In this document: positions 47,655-53,397 of the stretch, piece after piece
Layout: each line of letters opens with the position of its first letter
Numbering within the stretch: the stretch's first letter is position 1
NCBI GenBank assembly: GCA_031282065.1
Contig: JAITEL010000057.1
Span: forward strand, 1 to 64,000
Source of the DNA: Treponema sp.
GTDB taxonomy: Bacteria > Spirochaetota > Spirochaetia > Treponematales > Breznakiellaceae
Direction: 5' to 3'
Length of the DNA stretch: 64,000 nucleotides
The notes under the pieces: generated by a model
Told to the model about the DNA's origin: nothing
Databases searched by the model: none
Seen by the model: only the letters and a program-made list of their open reading frames with translations
Position numbers and translations under genes: made by a program

Positions 47655-48365
47655 ATGATTGGAATCATTGGAGCTATGGAGGATGAAATTACCCTGCTTC
47701 GCTCGGCCCTCAGGCATCAGCACGTCAAAACTACGGGAGGGTTTACCTTTTTTGAAGGGGAACTTGAAGAAAAGCCCGTGGTTTTATTGCGATCCGGAGT
47801 GGGTAAGGTCCATACCGCGATAGCTTGTACCTTGCTCATTACCAGCTATCAACCGGATGTAGTCATCAACACCGGCTCTGCCGGAGGTATCGATCCCATG
47901 CTCAAGTTCGGGGATGCCATTATTTCCGATGGCTTGGTGTACCATGATGTGGATGTTACCGCCTTTCAGTACGCCCCCGGCCAGCTTCCCGGTATGCCTG
48001 CGGTATTTCCGGTTCCTGAGGACTTGATTAACCGGGCGAAACAGGCAGTGGAAGAGCTGAAACAGGAGCGTAAACTTCCTTTAGCCTTTAACCATGTCCA
48101 GGGACTCATTGGCTCAGGAGACGTCTTTATGCACGAACCGGATCGTATTGCTGCGGTGCGGGCCCTCTTCCCTGATATGAAGGCAGTGGAAATGGAAGGC
48201 GCCGCAGTGGCTCATAGCTGTTTCATCTTCAAGGTCCCGGCCCTGATCATCCGTGCCCTTTCGGATATTGCGGGGACTGAATCGCCCCTTACCTTCACGG
48301 AATTCCTCCCGGTAGCGTCTCAACATTCCGCAGAAATCGTCCGGCGTATCATCCGCAATACCTAA
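47655..48365 (+). CDS. mtnN: 5'-methylthioadenosine/S-adenosylhomocysteine nucleosidase
   Basis: A 236-residue nucleosidase that recycles MTA and SAH. It has IGIIGAMEDEI at the start (catalytic Glu), VVINTGSAGGID, GSGDVFM and the base-binding AVEMEGAAVAHSC, then ALSDIAG with the catalytic Asp. It is the last gene of the run and is followed by a terminator hairpin. MTA is also a by-product of polyamine synthesis, which links loosely to the decarboxylase at 18088. Confidence 0.94.
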   Translation: MIGIIGAMEDEITLLRSALRHQHVKTTGGFTFFEGELEEKPVVLLRSGVGKVHTAIACTLLITSYQPDVVINTGSAGGIDPMLKFGDAIISDGLVYHDVDVTAFQYAPGQLPGMPAVFPVPEDLINRAKQAVEELKQERKLPLAFNHVQGLIGSGDVFMHEPDRIAAVRALFPDMKAVEMEGAAVAHSCFIFKVPALIIRALSDIAGTESPLTFTEFLPVASQHSAEIVRRIIRNT

Positions 48366-48857: not shown

Positions 48858-49071
48858 GCAAACTCCTTAGCAAGATATACGCAAAATCCGTACCAAAATA
48901 CGCTTAGGCCGGATGAGATGAGGATTTTCATGCTCGTACCAGGAAATACTCAAGGCCCTTTCCCGCTTCCTGCCTGCTTACCGGGTCCAAATGGGCAAAA
49001 TGTTCCCACCTGGGTAAAATATGCCTTGTTCAACATGAGTTCAATAGGGACATGAGAGCAGCAAGGATAGC
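48858..49071. other. Intergenic stretch before the 49072 array
   Basis: With the array it forms a 381-bp gap. It carries the leftward ribosome site and probably the promoter of the small secreted protein (TATATC near 48873). Nothing else is recognisable. Confidence 0.35.
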
Positions 49072-49163
49072 TTCCGAGCATAGCCGGAGACCTTCCGAGC
49101 TTCCCCGAAGACCTTCCGAGCCTCCCCGGAGACCTTCCGAACATAGTCCGGTAGCTTCCGAAC
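49072..49163. repeat. Tandem array of a 21-bp unit, 5 copies
   Basis: TTCCGA marks lie at 49072, 49093, 49114, 49135 and 49156, an exact 21-bp period. Units hold CGGA-GACCT-TCCG, a 4-bp stem. Because 21 is a multiple of three, it creates repetitive open frames (RRPSELP on one strand), which I do not regard as genes. Confidence 0.85.
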
Positions 49164-49238: not shown

Positions 49239-50756
49239 TTAAGCCGCTTGAGGGGGGCTTTGCGCATGGCCTAACCAGGCTTCCCGGTACCTTGCCAGTT
49301 CGGGTATGTCGATCCGCAAGACTTCCTGATAGGCTATATCAAAATCCTCAGCGAGGTCCGCGAGCTTTTTACCGGTCAAAGCCATCTTAACGGTCATGGC
49401 CGCCCCTAAGGCAGTAGCTTCCGCCATGTCCGTGAGGACTACCCGGTTCTTCGGGAGGGCCGCTGCAAGGAGGGTAAGGTAGGCCCTATCCTTCCTAAAT
49501 CCCCCTTCGGTAAAAACCGGAACGCCTGGGACAAGGCCGGTCCGTTCCAAGGCAGTGAGGGTCTGCATGACCAGGGATATACCCAAAAGGGCAATTCCCG
49601 CTTCGTAGCGTTTAAAAACCGGGGGCATGAGGGTTCCCTGGGCAAGAGCGCTAAAAGGATACTCCTGCCCGTCCTCAATGACCCGTGGGGTGGACCAGGG
49701 GAACTGGCCTGAACCAGGGGTAAGCTCCGGCAGGAGGAAGGCGCTTTTGTCGGCGAGCAGGGAACGGTACAGGCTCAGGTCAAAAGGAGGCAAATCCCGG
49801 CGGCTATGTATATCCTTAAGGAGGCGGGACCAGCGTTCAAATTCCTGGCCTCCCAGGAAGATAGCGGTCTTTACCGGTGTTCCAAAGGCAGAAATATTGA
49901 AGAAGACCACCTTGCCCAGCTCTTCTTTGGCGAATCCATAAGCCGGTACAGGGTGCATAATAACACACCAGGTCCCGGTGGAATTGAGCACAAAGCCCCC
50001 CTCTCCGTGCTTGGCAAAATGGGGGAGCAGGGAAGCATTGGAGTCATGGATACCCAGGGTCAGGATCACCTCCTGCGTAAGACCGGTTTTCCGGGCAAAG
50101 GCCGGGCTGAGGGTTCCCGGCACATCCCAGGGGGCCCCCAGTCGCTTTGGCATGAGGGGAGCGAGCCCCAGGCCCTGGGCCACAGAGGAAAGGCGCCCCT
50201 GCCGCTGATCCCAGAGGTAGCTATGACAGCCCATAGAGGTTCTCTCTGCCCCGGTCTTGCCGGAGAACCGGTACCCCCAGTATTGAGGATAGAGCAGCAC
50301 CTGGACCGTCTGCTTGAAAGCTTCTGGATACTGTTCCTGGGCAAAAAAGATCCCCTTGCCGGTGTTGATGAGGGCCTTGAACGCAGGGGTACCGGTCTCT
50401 TCCTGAAGCGCCTCCGGGGAGCCAAACCGGGCATAGAAACGTTCATGAAAGGCATCCCCCGGTTCATGGGTGTAGTATACGCAGGGCAGCGAAGGGGTAC
50501 CGTCTTTTCCCACCCCGACAAAGGTGGCCCCGTGGGTACTCACGGCCATGCCCTTAACCGGATAGAGCCGGGCATACCGGGCGATTTGTTCGGTGAACCA
50601 GTCCTCCATGGCCGCTAGATCATGGGTTTCCAATCCATCCCTAAGGAGAGGCGGGAAATGCCGGTACCGGCTATCCACCGGCCTCAAGGCATCATCATAG
50701 ACCGCCACTTTCTTATTGGTCATCCCGATATCGAGCACCGCAATAGCATATTCCAC
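49239..50756 (-). CDS. FGGY-family carbohydrate kinase
   Basis: A 505-residue sugar kinase of the FGGY family. The ATP-binding start is AIAVLDIGMTNKKVAVYD; later motifs include LNSTGTWCVI, FLGGQEFERW and FTEGGFRKDRAYLTLLAAAL. It most resembles the rhamnulokinase/fuculokinase group, but the substrate cannot be told. It is third in a leftward PHP-SDR-kinase operon (9 bp after the SDR gene). A sugar or polyol oxidised by the SDR is the likely substrate or precursor. Confidence 0.85.
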   Translation of the reverse strand: MEYAIAVLDIGMTNKKVAVYDDALRPVDSRYRHFPPLLRDGLETHDLAAMEDWFTEQIARYARLYPVKGMAVSTHGATFVGVGKDGTPSLPCVYYTHEPGDAFHERFYARFGSPEALQEETGTPAFKALINTGKGIFFAQEQYPEAFKQTVQVLLYPQYWGYRFSGKTGAERTSMGCHSYLWDQRQGRLSSVAQGLGLAPLMPKRLGAPWDVPGTLSPAFARKTGLTQEVILTLGIHDSNASLLPHFAKHGEGGFVLNSTGTWCVIMHPVPAYGFAKEELGKVVFFNISAFGTPVKTAIFLGGQEFERWSRLLKDIHSRRDLPPFDLSLYRSLLADKSAFLLPELTPGSGQFPWSTPRVIEDGQEYPFSALAQGTLMPPVFKRYEAGIALLGISLVMQTLTALERTGLVPGVPVFTEGGFRKDRAYLTLLAAALPKNRVVLTDMAEATALGAAMTVKMALTGKKLADLAEDFDIAYQEVLRIDIPELARYREAWLGHAQSPPQAA

Positions 50757-50765
50757 TGCCCGCTC

Positions 50766-52046
50766 CTAGTGTAACCGCACCTGGCCGCCGGTAACCGGGA
50801 CCGCCTGACCGGTTTCATACTCCTGTTCGATACTATAGTAGATTGCCCGCATCACATCCGGGCCGGTACAGCCCCGTTTCATGGGGACTTTGGTTTCATA
50901 GTAGGCCTTTACATCCGAAAGATGCCTGGCCCCAGGTACTTTGCCGGCTCGAAAGTACTGGACGAAAAGGCCCTTTTCCGGGTCAGCCCAGAGGGGGCCT
51001 TCAAAGAAATTACCCGGGCAGATGGCATTTACCTTGATGTTATAGTCCGCCAGTTCCAGGGCAAAGCTCTCGGTCAATCCTATGCCGCCGAATTTTCCCC
51101 CGGCATAGGCACCGTTTTTATTTGAACCCTCAAGACCGGACTTGGAATTGATCTGAATGATATCGGTCTTCCAGTGAGGAGCGGTCCGGTGCTGCGCTCT
51201 CAACAATACACCCGCGTGCTTGGCAATGAGAAAGAAGCCGGTGTAATTAACAGCCGTAACCAGGGCAAAATCCTCCAAGGGCTGCTCCAGAACACCGGCG
51301 GCCTTGAGAACCCCGGCATTACTGATGCAAATATCCAGGCCCCCTGCGCTGGTTACCAGGGTCTTAAACAGGGCCTCCACCGAGGCTTCGTCCGCAACAT
51401 CCACCGCCACGGGGATTGCGGCGGTCCGTTTTTCCCTGGCATTGATCTGGACCGCCAGGGCTTGCGCCCCCTCCGGGTTACGATCTGCGATAAAGACCAG
51501 GGCCCCTGAAGCGGCAAGGCTTCGGGCGATGATTTCTCCTATCCCTTGGGCCCCGCCGGTTACCAGGGCAATCTTGTTCTTCACCACATCAGCGCGATGG
51601 GCAGACATGAAGGCCGCGGGCGGCGGCGGGGCCTTTTCCGTTAAAAGGGCATCGTTTCTTGCCTCCATCCGCTCTTTAGCCGCATCAAAGTCCCGGTCTA
51701 TCCAATAAACCCCCTGGACCGTATCCGCATCTTTTACCACGACGCAGGAAGGGCTCTTTTTACCCGCTTCAGTCCGGGCCGCTGCTTCCACTCCTGCCGG
51801 GGCCCGGTCGAATTCCCAGGCCGTATAGGCATCCTGTAAAATTTTGGCGGCATACTCGGTATCCAAGGAGGTACCCTCGGACCGGGCAGGGGCGATATCA
51901 ATGATCAATGCCGCTGGGGGTATCTGGGTTTGTCCCGGAGGGCTCGGCATAACCACCAAAGGGTATCTTCTGGTGTTAATATAAAGCCCCCGGATAAGGG
52001 GTATGAGAGCGGTGGGATCCACCGCTCTTGGTTCAGCTCTTTCCAT
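50766..52046 (-). CDS. Short-chain dehydrogenase with a 140-residue N-terminal extension
   Basis: A 426-residue protein. The C-terminal 270 residues are a classical SDR: NAD(P) motif TGGAQGIGE, CISNAGV, catalytic Ser in INSKSG and YAGGKFGG (YxxxK), ending ETGQAVPVTGGQVRLH. The first 140 residues are not the aldolase domain found in RhaEW-type fusions and match nothing I know. ATG 52046 has GGGAGG upstream and overlaps the PHP gene by 14 bp. It resembles sorbitol-6-phosphate dehydrogenases in its SDR part. Substrate unknown. Confidence 0.8.
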   Translation of the reverse strand: MERAEPRAVDPTALIPLIRGLYINTRRYPLVVMPSPPGQTQIPPAALIIDIAPARSEGTSLDTEYAAKILQDAYTAWEFDRAPAGVEAAARTEAGKKSPSCVVVKDADTVQGVYWIDRDFDAAKERMEARNDALLTEKAPPPPAAFMSAHRADVVKNKIALVTGGAQGIGEIIARSLAASGALVFIADRNPEGAQALAVQINAREKRTAAIPVAVDVADEASVEALFKTLVTSAGGLDICISNAGVLKAAGVLEQPLEDFALVTAVNYTGFFLIAKHAGVLLRAQHRTAPHWKTDIIQINSKSGLEGSNKNGAYAGGKFGGIGLTESFALELADYNIKVNAICPGNFFEGPLWADPEKGLFVQYFRAGKVPGARHLSDVKAYYETKVPMKRGCTGPDVMRAIYYSIEQEYETGQAVPVTGGQVRLH

Positions 52047-53397
52047 ATACAATCCTCCCATGGATGAGGTTTTCTGCTAAGTGTATTGCCGAGGCTTCAG
52101 GGTGACGGTGATCCAAGGCCCTGCCTGCTGCGGCATAGGTGGCAAGCCGGGATGCCAAGGACTCCCCGGCAAGGGGATTTTTCGAGGAAAAGAGCCCCCA
52201 CCGGGGATCTAGGGAGCACAGCCGTTCATGGGCAATGAGGGCCCAGGTGCTATCCACCAGGTGCCGGCAGGAGGGGCTCCTTACTTCGGGGCATGTAAAG
52301 GATTGGCGGGAACTGTTGATATCCACCCCGGAGATTTCCATGAAACCCCAGGCCGTACATAAATCCCGGACCCGCTTGAGTTGCGCCGGGGTATTCCGGG
52401 GAGGCATATAGGTGATCCCCTGATAGCCGATACGGGCTAATGCCTCAAAAAGGGCTTCCAGATAGGCGTCCTCGAATGGTTCTGCCTGTTTGTCTCCGGT
52501 AGGAGATGCTCCCACATCCCCCAGGTAGGCATAGGATGGAATGGCCCCAATGGAGCGGGCAAAGTCCACCACGGTTTGAGCAGGGATACATTCTGTTTCC
52601 TGGGGCGGTATATATATCCGGGGGAGCAAGGCTGATTTCAGAACCCCCAGGAGATCGTAGAGGTAATGGGGATTTTCAGTATCCCCCAGGAAGGCCCTGA
52701 TTTCTGGCCTGGGTACTATCCCCAAAGCGCTGGAAAGTCCCTGCACTAAAGCGGGCCCCTTGCCAAAGCCTTGGATGATCTTGGCGGCCACTGCGGCCAA
52801 GAGATGCCGTTCCGTGATTGCCCCGCCTGCAGCATATTGGGACCTATCCAGAATATCCTGGACAAAATCAATGTCCTCGGTAAACCCCGTTTCTGTAAGC
52901 AGGGTATTGGCGGCTTCGGTCATGGCTTGGATTCGCAGGAAGCGCTGGGCCCGGATAGACTTAAGGAAGTCCTCCACCGCGGAAAGCTGGGGCTTGGGTA
53001 TCCCCTGGACGGTCATGTAGAGGATCCCTACGGAATCGGGGTTGTTGAGCTTCTTATGGGCAAAAGAAGTAGGCCCCCAAGGGCCTTGGGTAAGACTGAC
53101 CCGGACCTCAAAGCCCACACACGCTCCGATACCCAGGCTTGCACAGGCCCTGAGCATCTCCTCTGCGGCAGCACTGGAATCGTGATCCACCGACCCCGCT
53201 GCTTCGAGCCCCGCTTCCCTGGCCTTTAAGGCCGCCATGCTTGGGGTATAGGGGCTAAAACTGTAGATGGTATGGATATGGTTATTCACTTCCCCGGTGG
53301 TTTGTGCAGGACCCGGCTTTTCCCCTACCCCTGCCTTGAGTGCGGAAAGTCGCGCTTCTCTTGAAGCCTTGGGGTCGTTGATAAGCTGGTAATTCAT
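52033..53397 (-). CDS. PHP-domain metal-dependent hydrolase
   Basis: A 454-residue protein whose first part is a PHP domain: NNHIHTIYSFSPYTP (His40, His42), VDHDS (Asp71, His72) and GFEVRVSL supply metal ligands. The rest has no motif I recognise. PHP enzymes hydrolyse phosphoesters of small molecules or nucleic acids. It is first in a three-gene operon with an SDR and an FGGY kinase, so a sugar-phosphate or cyclic ester substrate is likely. Its promoter ends 8 nt before the ATG with no ribosome site, so the mRNA is probably leaderless. Confidence 0.78.
   Translation of the reverse strand: MNYQLINDPKASREARLSALKAGVGEKPGPAQTTGEVNNHIHTIYSFSPYTPSMAALKAREAGLEAAGSVDHDSSAAAEEMLRACASLGIGACVGFEVRVSLTQGPWGPTSFAHKKLNNPDSVGILYMTVQGIPKPQLSAVEDFLKSIRAQRFLRIQAMTEAANTLLTETGFTEDIDFVQDILDRSQYAAGGAITERHLLAAVAAKIIQGFGKGPALVQGLSSALGIVPRPEIRAFLGDTENPHYLYDLLGVLKSALLPRIYIPPQETECIPAQTVVDFARSIGAIPSYAYLGDVGASPTGDKQAEPFEDAYLEALFEALARIGYQGITYMPPRNTPAQLKRVRDLCTAWGFMEISGVDINSSRQSFTCPEVRSPSCRHLVDSTWALIAHERLCSLDPRWGLFSSKNPLAGESLASRLATYAAAGRALDHRHPEASAIHLAENLIHGRIVYGKS

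Follow-up and report, generated by a model that had tools for sequence, protein, structure and literature searches.

A PHP-SDR-FGGY kinase gene trio in Treponema is split off from a conserved Spirochaetota operon linked to L-rhamnose and L-fucose catabolism

The three genes that we examined in a Treponema genome, which encode a PHP-family protein, an SDR, and an FGGY kinase, are a detached piece of an operon that is conserved across genera, families, and classes of the Spirochaetota. Given that isomerases for 6-deoxyhexoses co-occur with this operon, and that in several genomes it is contiguous with genes for rhamnose or fucose use, the operon and the trio almost certainly belong to the catabolism of L-rhamnose and L-fucose. 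More tentatively, and with a probability of roughly 40%, we propose that spirochetes use a carbonyl-shift route for both sugars, in which a PHP-fold protein would handle a tetrose phosphate and the formation of lactaldehyde and 1,2-propanediol would be avoided.

The window, meaning the whole 64,000-nucleotide stretch of DNA that we analyzed, corresponds to contig C71 in a 2.65-Mb draft genome (G000) that is 98% complete. The nearest relatives of this genome are Treponema MAGs, which, judging by isolate names and relatives, we take to be of termite gut origin. All three genes lie on the minus strand, packed together as the initial annotation had described them:

49239 to 50756, minus strand: FGGY kinase of the FGGY_C_2 type (Pfam; RhaK homology; GTG start)
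50766 to 52046, minus strand: SrlD-like SDR of about 426 amino acids (PRK12384, 5o3z, tree, Ser-Tyr-Lys motif, ribosome-binding site)
51654 to 52046, minus strand: N-terminal extension of the SDR, a small alpha/beta domain (AlphaFold model)
52033 to 53397, minus strand: PHP-family protein of 454 amino acids, the first gene of the trio (Pfam; structure model and fold comparison)

The annotated ATG of the SDR lies at 52061 (50766 to 52061, a 431-amino-acid reading), but a GGGAGG motif precedes an internal ATG at 52046, which we therefore judge to be the better start, 52061 being less likely. The overlap between the PHP and SDR genes is 29 bases from the ATG at 52061 and 14 bases from that at 52046, and the kinase start lies 9 bases past the SDR stop. 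In Pfam, the kinase matched FGGY_C_2 (72 versus a cutoff of 27) as well as FGGY_N, the SDR matched adh_short (142 versus a cutoff of 27), and the match of the PHP protein was subthreshold (21.3 versus a gathering score of 26.4). As had been reported, no transporter, isomerase, or aldolase adjoins the trio within the window. Just downstream of the kinase gene, at 49067 to 49161 on the plus strand, is a short imperfect tandem repeat with a 21-base unit in 3.6 copies. A PNP_UDP_1-family nucleosidase gene (47655 to 48365) remains a neighbor of the trio in several sister species, and we found no functional link between this gene and the trio.

We carried out the gene neighborhood search that the initial annotation had suggested and found that the Spirochaetota operon consists of genes for a DeoR regulator, an E2, an E3, a fused E1 (818 amino acids), the PHP protein, the SDR, usually the FGGY kinase, and a zinc dehydrogenase. 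The E2 has lipoyl, E3-binding, and acyltransferase domains, the E3 is a lipoamide dehydrogenase, and the E1 is of the thiamine-diphosphate type. The gene set first proposed was correct, although it is not a stand-alone set but a fragment of a larger operon, in which its missing partners are another dehydrogenase and a complex resembling the 2-oxoacid dehydrogenases. Some variation is seen among relatives: the FGGY kinase is absent from operons L039, L086, L081, L080, and L082, a rhamnulokinase-like gene replaces it in L080, L082, and L085, and L079 has LipA- and LipB-type genes for lipoyl synthesis next to the operon. In the genome of the window, the parts are spread over four contigs of the draft MAG, with the trio on C71, E2-E3-E1 on C121, the zinc dehydrogenase on C169, and, on C86, an L-rhamnose isomerase gene adjoining a gene for a RhaE-type class II aldolase. 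The reported lack of partners consequently holds for the surroundings of the trio but not for the genome, and partners were missed at first because they sit on other contigs.

The separation of the trio from the E1/E2/E3 complex and the zinc dehydrogenase, on separate contigs, could also mean that in this genus the trio is a relic or has been recruited, independently of the complex, to the use of a different sugar or polyol. This reading is also favored by sister loci L019 and L029, where the PHP gene was not found beside the SDR and FGGY genes, and by a second SDR paralogue that has lost its catalytic Tyr. Nevertheless, this one genome contains every part in intact form, the SDR of the trio has kept its catalytic residues, and most sister species retain the trio in the same order at 75 to 85% identity, a degree of conservation that marks it as more than a chance set of open reading frames. 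We therefore regard a relic or a reused trio as quite unlikely.

We examined the link of the operon to 6-deoxyhexoses in a sample of 296 Spirochaetota genomes, 16 of which, spanning 14 genera, carry the PHP family. E1 is present in all 16 of these genomes versus 2 of the 280 others (Fisher p of about 1e-24, with shared ancestry ignored), and RhaA or FucI is likewise present in 16 of 16 versus 40 of 280 (p of about 4e-13, again ignoring shared ancestry). Five of the PHP genomes are rhamnose-only, five are fucose-only, and six are dual. RhaA is missing from five operon-bearing genomes, every one of which has FucI, and RhaI, sought as a substitute isomerase, is absent from the RhaA-negative genomes.

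Physical linkage points in the same direction. In G024, a two-component system follows the operon directly, and the unbroken run goes on with RhaS (457 bits versus a cutoff of 342), an ABC ATPase, two permeases, RhaM, RhaE, and RhaA (656 bits versus a cutoff of 572), and the same unbroken run from DeoR to RhaA is found in G086. The operon of G045 extends as far as RhaS and the ATPase, and RhaE and RhaA come a few kilobases later, while that of G311 is surrounded by RhaM, a transporter, RhaE, and RhaA and has a rhamnulokinase-like kinase instead of the FGGY_C_2 kinase. On the fucose side, FucI lies directly upstream in G323, in the order FucI-FucU-DeoR-operon, and in G264 it stands behind FucU and a sugar transporter, in divergent orientation to the operon. 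The L-rhamnose isomerase on C86 scored 554 bits, under the TIGR01748 cutoff of 585, whereas its homologue in G024 was above the cutoff. The initial annotation had envisaged that a kinase and an oxidoreductase act together on a sugar or polyol, which this operon context supports; it had also stated that its reading would be refuted by conserved neighbors placing the trio in a known rhamnose, fucose, or sorbitol pathway, and relatives do tie the operon to L-rhamnose and L-fucose isomerases, mutarotases, and transporters, which marks it as serving 6-deoxyhexose catabolism. Its further remark that the combination is not a recognized pathway holds, in that no known pathway has this gene set.

The homologies of the individual enzymes are compatible with such a role. 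The kinase is 32 to 34% identical to RhaK of Sinorhizobium meliloti and 45% identical to a Treponema saccharophilum homologue that adjoins rhaD, and its nearest solved structure is 3h6e. RhaK is genetically needed for rhamnose use in rhizobia (PMC9025865). We propose that the kinase acts as an L-rhamnulose 1-kinase and, in relatives, also as an L-fuculose 1-kinase. The zinc dehydrogenase is 50 to 51% identical over its full length to SorE of Klebsiella (the protein of the window's genome, 50% over 427 columns), a full-length, family-level homology from which we predict a SorE-like enzyme. SorE is an L-sorbose-1-phosphate reductase.

The SDR most resembles SrlD (sorbitol-6-phosphate 2-dehydrogenase), with 38 to 40% identity, 5o3z as its best structure match, and intact catalytic Ser, Tyr, and Lys; its best NCBIfam match, PRK12384, is below the cutoff (225.7 versus 307). 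In our tree, SrlD groups with the spirochetal SDRs (94/86), among them the ones fused to RhaE, and RhaW forms a separate clade (100/100), which rules out the SDR as a split RhaW. The N-terminal extension noted at first sight is real, covers roughly residues 1 to 135 of the 431-amino-acid reading, and folds confidently in part; structure prediction, as had been advised, yielded the small alpha/beta domain, although no family was matched. It is about 20% conserved between families. Comparison by hhalign gave no signal for a decayed RhaE domain and no match to other operon proteins. The window SDR is without the N-terminal class II aldolase fusion of the RhaEW layout; a RhaE-SDR fusion is found only in G197 and G181.

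The second SDR paralogue, which likewise carries the N-terminal extension, occurs on contig C56 of the same genome (L036:1709-3100, minus strand) and in L047, L031, L026 to L028, and L050. Three copies were examined (L036, L047, and L031), all of which have Asn at the position of the catalytic Tyr, and the paralogue is possibly a noncatalytic partner. An HD-domain gene comes after it in the genus, and an HD-domain gene also closes the operon in L075.

The E1/E2/E3 complex might, in principle, be an ordinary pyruvate dehydrogenase that is coregulated by chance with rhamnose and fucose genes, as the domain makeup and GHS catalytic loop of the E1 match those of a pyruvate dehydrogenase-type E1. 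We consider this very improbable, because the E1 scores far under all pyruvate dehydrogenase equivalog cutoffs (240 versus 454 and 166 versus 394), is present at high identity in only 18 of the 296 genomes, in keeping with its presence in all 16 PHP genomes, and has homologues in other sugar loci. These homologues, at 52 to 55% identity, lie on plasmids of Rhizobium, Agrobacterium, and Pleomorphomonas (L147 to L150; for example, pRL8) in unassigned sugar loci, where the fused E1 is accompanied by a lipoyl protein, an AcoC-like hydrolase, a sugar kinase, and a sugar-binding regulator, and sugar transporters stand beside the rhizobial ones. Such loci suggest a wider family of acetyl-CoA-forming sugar pathways. 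The PHP family gave no match in the plasmid search.

From genome linkage, co-occurrence, and homology, we infer the following reactions, all of which are predictions. RhaA or FucI would produce L-rhamnulose or L-fuculose, which the FGGY kinase would phosphorylate at C1. The SorE-like zinc dehydrogenase would then reduce the C2 ketone to give a 6-deoxyhexitol-1-phosphate, and the SrlD-like SDR would oxidize C5, beside the methyl group, so that the carbonyl would have moved and a 1-deoxyketohexose-6-phosphate would result (1-deoxy-D-sorbose- or 1-deoxy-D-tagatose-6-phosphate if the SorE stereochemistry holds). Together, SorE-type and SrlD-type enzymes relocate the ketone of a ketose-1-phosphate from C2 to the opposite end of the carbon chain. 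Since the product would be acetoin-like (CH3-CO-CHOH-R), E1/E2/E3 could cleave it to acetyl-CoA and an aldotetrose-4-phosphate. With the SorE stereochemistry, both sugars would yield acetyl-CoA and D-threose-4-phosphate, by Fischer-projection reasoning rather than computation, and a common product would explain why one core serves two isomerases. For the steps from kinase to cleavage taken jointly, we would offer slightly less than even odds.

The last and least certain step of the proposed route is assigned to the PHP protein, which may act on the tetrose phosphate as an isomerase, epimerase, or phosphatase. Its model (pLDDT of 92) is a PHP barrel with a fold nearest to the phosphoesterases 3e0f and 2yb1, and it shares with PHP phosphoesterases (3e0f, 2yb1, and RNase AM) the barrel and the HxH, DH, and Glu motifs. 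In contrast to those enzymes, it has Phe47 in place of the Asp after HxH, Asn361 in place of the final His, and about 150 extra residues. With at least two canonical metal ligands replaced in the alignment, its chemistry may differ, and its original description as a metal hydrolase is doubtful. Its fusion with a mannitol-dehydrogenase-like domain in G197 hints at sugar phosphates as substrates. Independent gene fusions join a class II aldolase to an SrlD-like SDR (L079:7203-11692) and a mannitol-dehydrogenase-like domain to PHP (L088:6590-8551). A distant PHP homologue lies beside a class II fructose-bisphosphate-aldolase-type gene in a spirochete of another class (G066, L108:7262-9467).

A RhaE-type class II aldolase accompanies RhaA in the genomes examined, that of the window included, and if it acts on rhamnulose-1-phosphate, giving lactaldehyde and DHAP, it would bypass the proposed route. 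It is conceivable that RhaE or another aldolase cleaves the ketose-1-phosphate to DHAP and L-lactaldehyde, and that the SDR, zinc dehydrogenase, PHP protein, and E1/E2/E3 turn the latter into acetyl-CoA, with either lactate and pyruvate or methylglyoxal as intermediates. Lactaldehyde would be common to rhamnose and fucose, the L082 operon has an L-lactate dehydrogenase gene in its vicinity, and the RhaE-SDR fusions in G197 and G181 fit this scheme, as do the findings that lactate is the product of RhaEW in Chloroflexus and that Bacillus subtilis depends on RhaEW to use rhamnose (PMC3870299). Yet the SDR groups with SrlD and not RhaW, a SorE-like enzyme would have no obvious part to play on a three-carbon aldehyde, and the E1 is below the pyruvate dehydrogenase cutoffs and confined to this system. 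Moreover, RhaE is absent from four FucI-only genomes, and the fucose loci of G264 and G323 show no PF00596-type class II aldolase recognizable by RhaE similarity. Weighing these points, we consider the lactaldehyde scheme unlikely, although the strongest of the alternatives, and retain the carbonyl shift as our preferred reading. The two routes may run in parallel, the core may act on aldolase products as in the lactaldehyde scheme, or RhaE may have another substrate. We disfavor a RhaE-like protein as a C4-epimerase of rhamnulose- to fuculose-1-phosphate, as six of six carry PSVE with the aldolase-type Glu. Glu is the aldolase type in FucA/RhaD, as contrasted with AraD.

L-Rhamnose and L-fucose are common in pectin and in algal and host glycans, and the known phosphorylating routes yield lactaldehyde and then lactate or 1,2-propanediol. 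If our proposal is true, direct formation of acetyl-CoA would alter which fermentation products are predicted for spirochetes from the gut, from termites, and from hot springs, and it would provide a function for the fused E1 family of rhizobial sugar loci and a substrate class for an orphan PHP family. We found no description of a carbonyl-shift, acetyl-CoA-forming route in the open-access literature that we searched, and the 2013 L-rhamnose survey of Rodionova et al. did not cover Spirochaetes (PMC3870299). Cultured species with closed genomes appear to have the full operon, which makes the proposal directly testable.

The proposed route combines features of several known systems. It shares with the L-sorbose pathway (SorE plus glucitol-6-phosphate dehydrogenase) a reduce-then-oxidize pair with an SDR of the glucitol-6-phosphate dehydrogenase type, although Klebsiella SorD is only 25% identical, and whereas L-sorbose enters glycolysis as fructose-6-phosphate, the substrate here would be a 6-deoxyketose phosphate that is cleaved to acetyl-CoA. 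The cleavage would resemble that of the acetoin dehydrogenase system in its TPP-dependent E1, lipoyl E2, and E3, and in the splitting of CH3-CO-CHOH-R to acetyl-CoA and an aldehyde, but E1 alpha and beta are fused here in one 818-amino-acid chain and embedded in deoxy-sugar operons. The kinase belongs to the same branch of FGGY kinases as rhizobial RhaK; the S. meliloti gene sits behind rhaM and next to the rhamnose ABC transporter, in a locus that, as viewed, has no adjoining PHP, SorE-like, or E1 gene. Finally, as in the L-rhamnose pathway built on RhaA or RhaI, a kinase, and RhaEW (PMC3870299), relatives combine RhaA, RhaM, a RhaS transporter, a kinase, a RhaE-type aldolase, and a DeoR-type regulator in one locus. 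Unlike that pathway, the spirochetal system has an SrlD-like SDR rather than RhaW, and its additional PHP, SorE-like, and E1/E2/E3 genes, which the known L-rhamnose pathway does without, show the strongest conservation within the operon.
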